The notes beneath the pieces are model-generated. The model searched no databases. It was not told the origin of the DNA and was given only the letters and a program-made list of their open reading frames with translations. DNA of 39,602 bases from a virus: positions 1 to 39,602 of the IMG/VR virus record IMGVR_UViG_3300025162_000013; one strand, given 5' to 3'. A program made the translations under genes and the position numbers. The stretch's first letter is position 1; every line of letters starts with the position of its first letter. Positions 11,055 through 22,545 of the stretch are shown here, in pieces.

Positions 11055-11309
11055 ATGTCAAAACTTTTACCACTTGGAGATTATTTACTTATTGAACCCA
11101 TTGAAAAAGAACAGGTGCTTGTTTCAGATGACGAGATACTTTGTACTTATGGAAAAGTTCTTGCAATTGGAAATAAAGCCGATAAAGAATTTTTAAATAA
11201 GATTGTTGGTTATGAAATCTGGGGAGTTCGTACTATTGAGATTGGCGAGAAAAAACATTATCTTATTTCACAAAATAGCGATTTTTTATTGGGTGAAATT
11301 ATCCTATGA
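11055..11309 (+). CDS. groES: GroES-like co-chaperonin
   Basis: 84 aa. Matches the Cpn10 barrel: LLPLGDYLLIEPIEKEQ, GKVLAIGNK, VGYEIWGVRTIEIGEKKHYL and a final LISQNSDFLLGEII. Bacterial GroES is about 95-97 aa; the loss is mostly in the mobile-loop region (here EKEQVLVSDDEILCTY), where VLV could stand in for the GroEL-binding hydrophobic tripeptide. It would cap a GroEL ring, most likely the phage's own GroEL encoded 1.4 kb downstream. The stop overlaps the next start (ATGA). Confidence 0.8.
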   Translation: MSKLLPLGDYLLIEPIEKEQVLVSDDEILCTYGKVLAIGNKADKEFLNKIVGYEIWGVRTIEIGEKKHYLISQNSDFLLGEIIL

Positions 11310-12055: not shown

Positions 12056-12241
12056 ATGCCAAGCGATAATATCACATTTGAAAAAGAACTTCAAGAAAAA
12101 TTGCTAAATGGTATTAGTAAAGTTTCTTGTAATTATTTTACAGAAGAAAAAGCTAAGAAAGTTATTAAGATTATGAAAAAGTGGTTTTTATCTTCAGAAA
12201 GAAAAATAGAAGAAATAAATAAGGTTTTAGAAAATAATTAA
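12056..12241 (+). CDS. GroEL N-terminus-like fragment (61 aa)
   Basis: Residues 3-23 (SDNITFEKELQEKLLNGISK) align with the start of the downstream GroEL (SDSNIILGDELQQKLISGIS): about 14 of 22 identical with one gap. After SKV the sequence diverges into a Lys-rich helix (EEKAKKVIKIMKKWF). It lacks the ATP-site GPKG motif. An HNH gene and an interleaved repeat separate it from the full gene. Likely a partial duplication of the groEL 5' end; it may or may not be functional. Confidence 0.55.
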   Translation: MPSDNITFEKELQEKLLNGISKVSCNYFTEEKAKKVIKIMKKWFLSSERKIEEINKVLENN

Positions 12242-12292
12242 CTTGTAATTCCTATCGGGCGGCTTTCTTACAAGTTGGCTGTCCGACAGGGA
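12240..12292 (+). promoter_or_regulatory. Interleaved inverted repeats before the HNH gene, element B
   Basis: Arm a AACTTGTAA (12240-12248) pairs with TTACAAGTT (12268-12276). Arm b TTCCTATCGGGCGGCT (12249-12264) pairs with GGCTGTCCGACAGGGA (12277-12292) over 16 positions with one A-C mismatch and four G-U pairs. Arms abut with no linker. The same layout and lengths occur before the HNH gene at 18946. It ends 10 bases before the ATG. Confidence 0.6.
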
Positions 12293-12302
12293 TAAAAAAT
12301 AT

Positions 12303-12740
12303 ATGCCAAGAGGAGTTTACGACCATAGTAAGAATAAAATTTGGAATAAGGGATTAAAGGGAATACACTTATCTCCAGAAACAGAATTTAAAAAAGGATG
12401 TAAGTCGGTAGGAGTAACTTTTAAAAAAGGAATACATCCTAAAAATGAATTTAAAAAAGGTTCAATCCCACCCAACAAGGGAAAAATGAAAGTAACGAGT
12501 TACAAGAAAGAAGGAGCTACTTCGGCTGCTAAACACCAATGGATTATATACAATTATGGTAATCCCCCTTATTGTGAAGATTGTGGTAAAGTGGGAGTAA
12601 AAGTAAATAGGCAATGGAATATTGATTGGAGTAACATAGACCACAAATATAAAAGGGAAAGAGATAATTATATTGGTAGATGTAAAAATTGCCACGAAAA
12701 ATATGACCAAATTTATAATAATAAATATTGTAAAAAATGA
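12303..12740 (+). CDS. HNH homing endonuclease with N-terminal FKKG repeats
   Basis: 145 aa. The C-terminal half has the HNH core with zinc cysteines: PYCEDCG, then WNIDWSNIDHKYKRERDNYI and GRCKNCHEKYD. The N-terminal half is a string of NUMOD3-like tracts (FKKGCKS, FKKGIHPKNEFKKGSIPPNK) that typically bind DNA along the minor groove. It would cut an intron-less or insert-less allele to spread itself. It sits between the GroEL-like fragment and full GroEL, whose ATG overlaps its stop. Confidence 0.75.
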   Translation: MPRGVYDHSKNKIWNKGLKGIHLSPETEFKKGCKSVGVTFKKGIHPKNEFKKGSIPPNKGKMKVTSYKKEGATSAAKHQWIIYNYGNPPYCEDCGKVGVKVNRQWNIDWSNIDHKYKRERDNYIGRCKNCHEKYDQIYNNKYCKK

Positions 12741-14260
12741 ATTCTGATTCAAATATTATATTAGGAGATGAGTTGCAACAGAAACTTATTTCTGGAATAA
12801 GCAAAGTTACAGAAGTTATTAGGAAAAATTATGGCCCAAAAGGTTCAAATGTTTCCATTGAACAATATTTATATCCTTTCCACATCATAGCAAATGACGC
12901 TCAATCTATAATTCAATCTGTATATTTTAACGACCCAACAGAAAGAAGAGCTTTAAACTTTTTAAAAGAATTAACTGATAAAAATTCTAAAACATCAGGA
13001 GAAGGAAGAAAGACAAGTTTAATTATCGCTGAGGAACTTTTAAAAGGTGGATTTGAACAAAATATAAAAGGAATGAAACTTAAAGAGGAATTAGACGCTT
13101 TACTCCCACAAGTTTTAGAAAGTATAGACAAACAAAGCAAACGAGTTGAGTTAGAAGATATTGGAATGGTTGCAGAAACATCCTCAAGAAGCTCGGAAAC
13201 AGGAAACTGGATAGCTAAAATCTATCAAGAAATAGGCAGAGATGGTATAATCCAAGTTGAACCAAGCGGTATGGAAAAAACCGTATATGAAGTAACAGAC
13301 GGAGTAAGATTTCACGCAGGAGCTTTAACAACTTCATTCTACAATAGCAAAGACGGAGCAGTTTATGAAAATCCTTTAATCTTAGTCAGCAAACAGAAGA
13401 TTGAAAAGTATAACCAGATAGCTCCTTTGGTAGAATACATAATAAAAGTTGAAAGACCACTTGTTATTTTTACTGATGATATGGACGAGAATATTGCAGT
13501 AGATTTAATCAAAACCCACTTAGCCAAGAAAGCTAAAATACTTATTATCAAAGCTCCGGTAGTATTCAAGCATTATATCTTTGAGGACTTTGCAAAATGT
13601 GTTGGTGCGACAGTAGTTGAAAGTGCAACTGGGTTGCAATTAGGTGAGAAGCTACCTTTGACAGCTTTAGGAACTTGTGATTATTTAGTAAGCGATAAAG
13701 AAGATACAGTTTTAAGGGGAATTAAAGATATTTCAGCTCACAAAGATAGTTTAAGGAAGTTAGGTGATGACGATAGTTTGAGAAGACTGGAATGGTTAAA
13801 CACTAAGACAGCAGTTTTAAAAATGGGAGCTAATAGTGAATCAGAATTATCTTATAAATTATTGAAAGCGAAAGACGCAGTTTCGGCTTGTAAATGGGCT
13901 TTGGACAGTGGAATTGTAGAAGGAGGCGGAATGGCTTTAATGAAATCGGCTTCAGAAATTGATTCATTAGAAGATTATTTACAATTAGACAAATTAGAAT
14001 CAAGAACAACAGAAACTCCAAAAAGTATTTTTGCATCTGCATTAGAAGCACCTTATAATCAATTATTAGAGAACAGTGGCGAAGAAGGAATAAATACTGA
14101 TGGAGTTTGGGACTCAAGTTTGGTTTTGAAGAATGCTGTGAAAAATTCCGTTTCACTTGCAGGAATAATTTTGACAACGGGTTGCGACATAAGATTAAGA
14201 GACAAAACCAAAGAAGAACAGGAGTTAGAAATATTAACACTTAAGAATAGACCCTTTTAG
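12737..14260 (+). CDS. groEL: Phage GroEL-like chaperonin
   Basis: 507 aa (bacterial about 545). Equatorial, intermediate and apical regions are all present. Visible: NYGPKG (31-36), NDA in place of the usual KDG, GEGRKTS (88-94) where bacteria have GDGTTTA, KDAVSA with Asp380 (equivalent of the catalytic Asp398), EGGGMAL (GGG 396-398), and near the C-terminus GVWDSS with the conserved Asp. The Asp-to-Glu and Thr-to-Arg/Lys changes at the phosphate loop imply altered ATP handling. No GGM-rich C-terminal tail. Probably folds phage proteins with the encoded GroES. Confidence 0.9.
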   Translation: MNSDSNIILGDELQQKLISGISKVTEVIRKNYGPKGSNVSIEQYLYPFHIIANDAQSIIQSVYFNDPTERRALNFLKELTDKNSKTSGEGRKTSLIIAEELLKGGFEQNIKGMKLKEELDALLPQVLESIDKQSKRVELEDIGMVAETSSRSSETGNWIAKIYQEIGRDGIIQVEPSGMEKTVYEVTDGVRFHAGALTTSFYNSKDGAVYENPLILVSKQKIEKYNQIAPLVEYIIKVERPLVIFTDDMDENIAVDLIKTHLAKKAKILIIKAPVVFKHYIFEDFAKCVGATVVESATGLQLGEKLPLTALGTCDYLVSDKEDTVLRGIKDISAHKDSLRKLGDDDSLRRLEWLNTKTAVLKMGANSESELSYKLLKAKDAVSACKWALDSGIVEGGGMALMKSASEIDSLEDYLQLDKLESRTTETPKSIFASALEAPYNQLLENSGEEGINTDGVWDSSLVLKNAVKNSVSLAGIILTTGCDIRLRDKTKEEQELEILTLKNRPF

Positions 14261-21209: not shown

Positions 21210-22545
21210 ATGGCAGCAGACCCAACAGCTCCAAATTTGAATATCCAAACAACTACCAACCAGTACCTTTAGTGGTGTGAGGTATGAATCTTTTCTCCCA
21301 AGCAATATAACGGCACCAGCGTGGGTAGACTTGGTTCTTAAGGATAGATAAAATTGTCCTTAATAAAAGGGTTTAACTCGGGGGAACTCCCATTGGGACA
21401 ATCCCGAACCAGCAGAGAGAATAGTTATTTATTAACATTTTATAAATAAGTCTCTCGGGCGTGCGTAACGGTCAGCGGTGAATAAATATAATCCGCATTA
21501 AGAACCCTCACCGAAAGGTGATGATATGACCTGAACACTATGGCAACATAGTGAAGTGAGAAATAGAAAGCTCACGATAACATATTTGAATTTCTTCTTT
21601 GGTGAAGTATTAAGTAACACAAAGAAATGGGACGGTTCACAGATGCTTTTCCCGATTAAATATCAAAAAGGTGTCAATTCAGTAGCTTTTAATGGCTTTG
21701 ATTTCCTCCCAACAACACAACAGCAAGTATCAGTTAATATGACTTTTTATCCGACTTTCGTGGCAACTAATGTCGCCTTAGCGGGAAGTGATTTGTCAGT
21801 TAACAAAACTCCTTCTCAAAAAGTAAAACTTTTGACTCAAATGATGAGTTCAAGAGCACAAGACGGAGCAGACGATGTGGGTAATTTCTTTCAAGGAAAT
21901 GGAACTTCTTTTGGAGGCAAAGCTCCAGCAGGTTTAGGTAACATCGTAGACAGCGGAGCAGTTTCTTCAACTTATGGTGGACTCTCAAGAGCTACCTACA
22001 CAGGTTTGAATGCAACAGTTACAGCTTCATCTGGTACAATTTCTCTTTTAAAAATTAGACAATTATCTAATCCTTTAACAGATGGAAAAGTAGAACCAGA
22101 CCTTTCACTTACAGACTATACAACCTGGTCTTATGTAGAACAGTTGCTACAACCTTTCCAGAGGAACAACTACTCAGATAACTATGACTCAATGAAAGCC
22201 GGAACAGGCTACAAAGGAGGCGTAGGAATCATCTGGGACGGATTGGTAATCCACAGAGACAAGAAAGTTACAACAGGTAATTTTTACCTTTTGAACACAA
22301 AGTTCTTGAAATTCTACGGATTGAATTGGTGGGAAGGAACTCCAGTATCTTTGATGGACAAAAAGATTGAAGGAAACATCTACGACTATATGAATCCAGC
22401 TTCAGCGACAAAAGCTTTCACTTGGACAAATTGGATTAGAGCTTATAACCAAGGAGCTATCAATGGATTTATGATTCTCGGTGGACAATTAATTTGTACC
22501 GACCCACAAAGAAACGGAGTTTTGACAGGAATTACAGGAATATAA
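21210..22545 (+). CDS. Major capsid protein, split by a group I intron (join 21210-21269, 21577-22545)
   Basis: Exon 1 encodes MAADPTAPNLNIQTTTNQYL and runs into TAG in the intron. Exon 2 resumes in phase with ITYLNFFFGEVLSNTKKWDG and continues with HK97-coat-like sequence (PTFVATNVALAGSDLSVNKT; ending GGQLICTDPQRNGVLTGITG). Spliced length 342 aa, usual for small HK97-fold coats; the unspliced exon 2 frame alone would start inside the intron at a GTG. It follows the scaffold gene by 24 bases. A copy without the intron in a related phage would settle the junction. Confidence 0.8.
21270..21576 (+). ncRNA. Group I self-splicing intron in the coat gene (307 nt, no ORF)
   Basis: P1: exon GUACCUU (21263-21269) with IGS GAGGUAU (21279-21285), giving the U-G pair at the 5' splice site. 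P3: AGGGUU (21368-21373)/AACCCU (21503-21508). P4-P5: CGGGGGAACUCCCAUUGGGA then CAAUCCCG, close to phage T4 td. P6 arms AGAGA/UCUCU and UUAUUUAU/AUAAAUAA. P7: GGUCA (21470-21474)/UGACC (21527-21531) after the typical GAUAUGACC. P7.1 GCGG/CCGC, P8 UCACC-GAAA-GGUGA, P9 CACUAUG-GCAA-CAUAGUG. Ends with G before AUAACA, which can form P10. Subgroup IA-like. Confidence 0.85.

Follow-up and report, generated by a model that had tools for sequence, protein, structure and literature searches.

The capsid gene of mycobacteriophage LittleE contains a group I intron (PMC3706429). Tandem group I introns with a tiny exon between them have been described in Twort orf142 (introns 2 and 3) and in the Coxiella 23S rRNA (PMC10136302), and tandem introns also surround a tiny exon in phiNIT1, where the gene is a nucleotide reductase, and in SIOphi (PMC11878797). 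Group I ribozymes have moreover been engineered to remove an internal segment using their P1 and P10 helices (PMC4094466). The open-licence literature that we searched yielded no natural group I intron devoid of a catalytic core. Here we describe a viral capsid gene in which, as we consider probable from sequence comparison, two group I-type introns flank a 33-nt exon and share one core, with the core of the downstream intron splicing the upstream one that has lost its own.

The locus lies on a stretch of 39,602 nucleotides that was analysed as a whole (IMG/VR record IMGVR_UViG_3300025162_000013; hereafter the window). Positions 21210-22545 hold a major capsid gene into which group I intron sequence is inserted. 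For comparison, 52 related capsid loci were examined together with an overlapping set of 80 from a profile search. Intronless relatives read ...NIQTTTNQYL, APAWVDQVLRDN and FFFGEVL in a single frame, and the uninterrupted protein is the state in most relatives. No homologue of the whole region was found by blastn against plasmid and phage collections. All four junctions were fixed by comparison with intronless relatives, and a close one from a genome collection, L138, aligned without gaps over both junctions. The exons were mapped as follows.

21210-21269, + strand: exon 1 (E1), MAADPTAPNLNIQTTTNQYL, ending in U, from the alignment to intronless relatives
21313-21345, + strand: exon 2 (E2), 33 nt, APAWVDLVLKD, kept in intronless relatives as APAWVDQVLRD
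21589-22545, + strand: exon 3 (E3), NFFFGEVL... through the stop codon, matching the phrog_9953 major head protein (E = 3.5e-30)

The gap between E1 and E2 is 43 nt (21270-21312) and that between E2 and E3 is 243 nt (21346-21588). A first-pass annotation of this DNA had proposed a single intron beginning after codon 20 of the coat protein, with the frame resuming 307 nt later. The 20-codon N-terminus does end at a TAG; however, the frame resumes only 319 nt after codon 20, and the conserved E2 was missed. Since this exon lies inside the supposed single intron, there must be two interruptions of 43 and 243 nt around it, and a single intron of about 307-319 nt starting at codon 20 was rejected. 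The intronless homologue that the same annotation had called for exists in L138, but it retains E2 and contradicts the earlier map.

An ordinary group I intron, complete in its core and free of any open reading frame (ORF), forms the second interruption, although its splicing as such is a prediction. It was identified by a match to the Rfam family Intron_gpI (RF00028), by a covariance model of our own (R2) and by its similarity to the core of a related contig, L059. Its elements are listed below; P3, P4, P5, P6, P7.1 and P8 were mapped and their pairs counted.

21346-21588, + strand: complete group I intron, 243 nt, between the codons for D and N (phase 0), with the 3' end UUUG and a final G
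21338-21363, + strand: P1b, UUAAGGAU (21338-21345) with GUCCUUAA (21356-21363), 8 bp, U.G at the splice site, from sequence
21351-21355 with 21589-21593, + strand: P10b, AAAUU with AAUUU, 5 bp, from sequence
21368-21374 with 21502-21508, + strand: P3
21379-21383 with 21402-21406, + strand: P4
21388-21392 with 21394-21398, + strand: P5
21415-21420 with 21451-21456, + strand: P6
21470-21474 with 21527-21531, + strand: P7, the G-binding helix, GGUCA with UGACC, by covariation
21475-21478 with 21493-21496, + strand: P7.1
21509-21512 with 21517-21520, + strand: P8
21536-21553, + strand: P9, CACUAUG with CAUAGUG

When a local stretch of 601 nt was searched, RF00028 matched at 21327-21553 with 23.6 bits (E = 7.5e-4). 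Related cores in L014 and L020 scored 40.3 and 32.6 bits, so that the Rfam matches here span 23-40 bits and all fall below the gathering score of 50 bits, a threshold which concerns detection and not the nature of the molecule. Automatic annotation would therefore miss these introns. Eight whole loci searched at E <= 0.01 gave no Rfam match, nor did the whole window at E <= 1, and covariance models were built for this reason. Model R2 scored 147.6 bits at 21364-21537, the window sequence having been among those from which it was built. The L059 core is near-identical to that of the window and its contig was the sole match in a search with a core-specific 18-mer. The L059 intron occupies a neighbouring site (APA-T|GG) and contains an HNH ORF within its P6 region that is absent in the window copy.

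The core structure was further supported by covariation. In an alignment of the window with L059, L014 and L048, the core helices were paired at 86% of cells, and 11 core pairs had changed on both sides compared to 6.9 in shuffles. The covariation score was reached by none of 500 shuffles, and sliding the partner strands lowered it sharply. Changes on both sides of a pair occurred in P3, P5, P6, P7 and P8; P7 alternates between GGUCA/UGACC and GACUA/UAGUC, in which three pairs differ on both sides. P1b was predicted with a pair probability of 0.96. These results bear out several earlier proposals, namely a group I intron in the capsid gene before FFFGEVL, the P4 to P9 elements, the phase 0 position and the lack of an ORF; the Rfam search that had been suggested did give a match, but one below the gathering score.

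The first-pass annotation had also placed three free-standing HNH-type genes elsewhere on this DNA and suggested that they could supply mobility in trans. Of the window's free-standing endonuclease candidates, one is an HNH protein, one an endonuclease VII and one of the NinG type, and a fourth matched no family; no link was found between these genes and the capsid intron site. Taken together, the earlier observation is partly confirmed and its interpretation partly supported. Another mobile insertion, one that duplicated the start of a gene, is possible at 12056-14260 of the window. Upstream of a GroEL-like chaperonin gene (12737-14260; phrog_5725, E = 1e-68) lies a small ORF (12056-12241) that resembles the start of GroEL over its first 24 residues (15/25 identical), and between these two sits an unclassified, HNH-like ORF (12303-12740). 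A further small ORF at 11055-11309 appears GroES-like by eye, with no Pfam or PHROG match at 1e-3.

The first interruption carries the marks of group I splice sites, namely a P1 with a U.G pair, a P10 and a final G.

21270-21312, + strand: predicted coreless intron, 43 nt, starting with UAG, with an internal guide and a final G (ending ACG), boundaries from the protein alignment
21263-21269, + strand: exon strand of P1a, GUACCUU, pairing with 21279-21285; 5' splice site a follows 21269
21273-21278, + strand: P10a guide, UGGUGU, 6 bp with GCACCA (21313-21318) from the first nucleotide of E2, contiguous with P1a
21279-21285, + strand: P1a guide, GAGGUAU, 7 bp, U.G at the cut
21286-21337, + strand: bridging hairpin predicted by RNAfold, joining the end portion of the coreless intron to E2, with 3' splice site a in its loop

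The U.G-ended P1 that had been noted at codon 20 is thus real (GUACCUU/GAGGUAU), but it belongs to the 43-nt element, and the complete intron has its own P1b. As the boundaries of the insert were taken from the protein alignment, the P1 and P10 guide constitutes an independent observation; a combined P1 and P10 of this length had p = 1.2e-4 against 50,000 dinucleotide shuffles. The covariance models detected no catalytic core in the 43-nt element, whose length alone leaves no room for one, and the only core in the whole window was that at 21364-21537. We predict that this element works like a group I intron while lacking the core required for membership in the group. At 43 nt and without a catalytic part, it is apparently excised by the ribozyme of the intron next to it. 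No match to the exact insert was found in the viral or genome collections, and no P9.0 was identified for 3' splice site a.

The same arrangement of a coreless intron, an exon of 20-33 nt and a complete intron is present in four related contigs, L014, L048, L020 and L023, which represent three further distinct sequences because L020 and L023 are identical here. The coreless introns are 41 nt in L014, 37 nt in L048 and 673 nt in L020/L023. In L014 and L048 the insert at APA-T|GG is followed by a 23-nt exon and a complete intron between D and N. In L020/L023 the insert at APA-T|GG harbors an HNH gene in its P1 loop, and the complete intron follows a 20-nt exon and lies between R and D. The coreless intron of the window is at L|A, 10 nt from the T|GG site of the others. 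L014, L048 and L020 show a P1 of 7-8 bp, a P10 of 4-6 bp from the first nucleotide of E2 and a final G, with P1 and P10 at p = 8e-5, 6.4e-4 and 1.2e-4 against shuffles, respectively. In all four distinct sequences P1a directly adjoins P10a, and the two helices begin precisely at the two junctions. More coreless introns were sought with P10-P1-exon 2 and exon 2 plus P1b patterns (window excluded), and only the known contigs were recovered; matches in L056, L135 and L136 were dismissed as chance.

We considered whether these inserts could be accommodated by translation instead. If only the complete intron were spliced, a +1 frameshift at CUU_UAG, similar to that of release factor 2, would translate the 43-nt insert and add SGVRYESFLPSNIT between NQYL and APAW; alternatively, a one-base contig error could conceal a 42-nt in-frame insertion. 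CUU before a stop codon is a known type of slippery site, which CUU_UAG fits, and the insert in the window is open in the E2 frame. These readings are nonetheless unlikely, since the related inserts of 41, 37 and 673 nt would require different shifts and those of L048 and L020 have stops in the E2 frame. Moreover, they leave unexplained the terminal G as well as the P1 and P10 guide in all four sequences (p from 8e-5 to 6e-4). T4 gene 60 is translated by bypass over a gap of similar size, and here too a stop directly follows the putative take-off codon. We give a bypass of the 43 nt next to no credence, as the take-off codon CUU is not matched by the ACG before landing and the relatives are interrupted within a codon, one of them by 673 nt with an HNH gene. 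Both the frameshift and the bypass were rejected on account of the insert lengths and stops in the relatives and the unmatched codons.

The distribution of cores points to splicing that depends on the neighbouring intron. The covariance models found one core per contig in the window, L014, L048, L020 and L023, always downstream of E2, and none upstream of E2 in any of them. All APA-T|GG introns that lack a close second intron downstream (L022, L034, L036, L045, L059 and L118) have a core of their own, and a complete intron follows 20-33 nt downstream in 5/5 contigs with a coreless one. Conversely, among roughly 85 related contigs, the D|N or R|D intron was seen in L110 and otherwise only where a coreless intron is present. 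This last contig (L110:2360-3000) has an R|D intron without an upstream coreless intron, and an ATG takes the place of the TGG codon at the T|GG site, a change that might reflect resistance to a homing endonuclease. Excision of the 43-nt intron by a group I ribozyme acting in trans, be it the freed second intron, a host intron or that of a coinfecting phage, was also weighed. Engineered group I cores can employ P1 and P10 in trans, as in spliceozymes and trans-excision-splicing (PMC4094466). We judge this to be quite improbable in the present case, because every coreless intron is followed on its own transcript by a complete intron that begins 20-33 nt downstream, and trans action would not need this.

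Comparison among relatives suggests how the coreless state arose. The coreless intron of L020 is 69% identical over 684 nt to the complete intron of L045; the match runs from near the 5' end to the start of the L045 core, where L020 passes with hardly any further sequence to the 3' splice site. In this lineage at least, the coreless state therefore goes back to complete introns. The HNH protein of L020 is 58% identical to the one in the complete intron of L022. We suggest that a core may have been deleted once a second intron in the same gene made it redundant. The downstream cores fall into three sequence classes (the window; L014 and L048; L020), which together with the different insertion site in the window indicates that the arrangement goes back to more than a single frozen accident. 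Common descent probably links L014 and L048, and with L020 and L023 identical about three independent lineages are left.

Additional introns were observed in this capsid gene at other sites in L024, L044, L125, L045, L127 and L036, among them QMLFPI|KYQ, a site before TFVATN and one within exon 3 of L036; several of these introns have apparently split cores. The related capsid gene of L139, a contig binned as Candidatus Hydrogenedentes, has a frame break shortly before WVDQVLRDN, which suggests another intron. This capsid gene, itself highly expressed, appears to be a hot spot for introns.

To examine how one core might reach both introns, the RNAs were folded with RNAfold. In each case, P1a, the bridging hairpin and P1b were placed in a row, followed by the core; the L020 RNA was folded without the HNH gene that lies between its two P1a strands. 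The arms of the bridging hairpin differ among relatives yet stay complementary (AAUACGAGG/CCUCGUAUU in L014, AAAACUUGG/CCAAGUUUU in L048, ACCUGGU/ACCAGGU in L020). Taken singly, its stability is not clearly greater than that of shuffles (fractions of 0.04 to 0.27), and in a longer fold of L020 its probability is just 0.11. In the window, RNAfold prefers an upstream hairpin that competes with P1a by 1.6 kcal/mol when these are folded in isolation. Run on L014, the Rfam model pairs the downstream core with P1a rather than P1b, and the remainder is handled as an insertion.

We propose that P1a would dock first into the downstream core, displacing P1b, and that a guanosine bound by P7 would cut after 21269. 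The G that ends the 43-nt intron would then enter the G site while P10a holds E2, such that exon 1 could attack E2 and release the 43 nt. Next, the core would join E2 to E3 in the ordinary manner via P1b and P10b. The bridging hairpin may set 3' splice site a beside P1a, and the matching of the P10 helices could keep the four splice sites correctly paired. A single core that handles two 5' splice sites and two 3' splice sites should permit exon skipping, as in Twort orf142, and skipping may occur as a side product. It is very improbable that skipping is the actual outcome, with one intron at 21270-21588, NQYL joined to NFFFG and E2 discarded. P1a with its U.G at 21269 does exist, and so does the 3' splice site at 21588; the pairing that Rfam draws in L014 is the one that skipping would use, and skipping of a 23-nt exon is known from Twort orf142 (PMC10136302). 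However, it would delete 11 residues that are conserved in relatives and, as read from the exon ends, would create a TAA or TGA right where the exons meet in L014, L048 and L020; P10a, furthermore, is complementary to E2 and not to E3.

Regarding the wider meaning of sequential splicing by one core, it seems fairly likely that the locus represents a natural group I spliceozyme, in which one core serves two interchangeable substrate helices and removes two introns from one message, and that core-stripped introns, even those with an HNH gene, persist by borrowing the core of a neighbour. Until now, such behaviour has been known chiefly from engineered RNAs, and this would be a natural instance. 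Loss of catalysis followed by reliance on shared machinery is the supposed step from self-splicing to spliceosomal introns, and to our knowledge there is no natural group I case of such dependence; the present one, if true, would be the group I counterpart of the reliance of spliceosomal introns on common machinery. Among the sequences compared here, the coreless intron that has kept its HNH gene would be an intermediate. If the proposal holds, introns of about 40 nt may hide from intron finders in phage genes, where they would be read as frameshifts or broken genes.

In many respects the locus resembles known systems. Like the IA introns of the LittleE capsid gene and Twort orf142, the introns here have a 5' exon ending in U, a final G and a P1-P10 guide, along with an IA-type P7.1 extension and HNH genes in relatives; LittleE also shares the capsid gene as the location. 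Unlike the LittleE and Twort introns, each of which has its own core, the first intron of the window has none. The placement of two introns around an exon of tens of nucleotides, with its risk of exon skipping, is similar to that in Twort orf142, Coxiella and phiNIT1. Those tandem introns have two cores, whereas the four splice sites here would all depend on one core; phiNIT1, with two separate Rfam matches of 94 and 42.7 bits, was rejected as a second natural coreless case since both of its introns have a core. Group III introns of Euglena and degenerate group II introns are short, have lost catalytic parts and depend on others. Theirs is group II chemistry, in contrast to the group I features of the window and its donor core on the same transcript. 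As in trans-excision-splicing ribozymes and spliceozymes, the core would use P1 and P10 to remove an internal segment and join its flanks. Unlike those engineered trans systems, the case described here is natural, apparently acts in cis and has its guide within the segment that would be removed.
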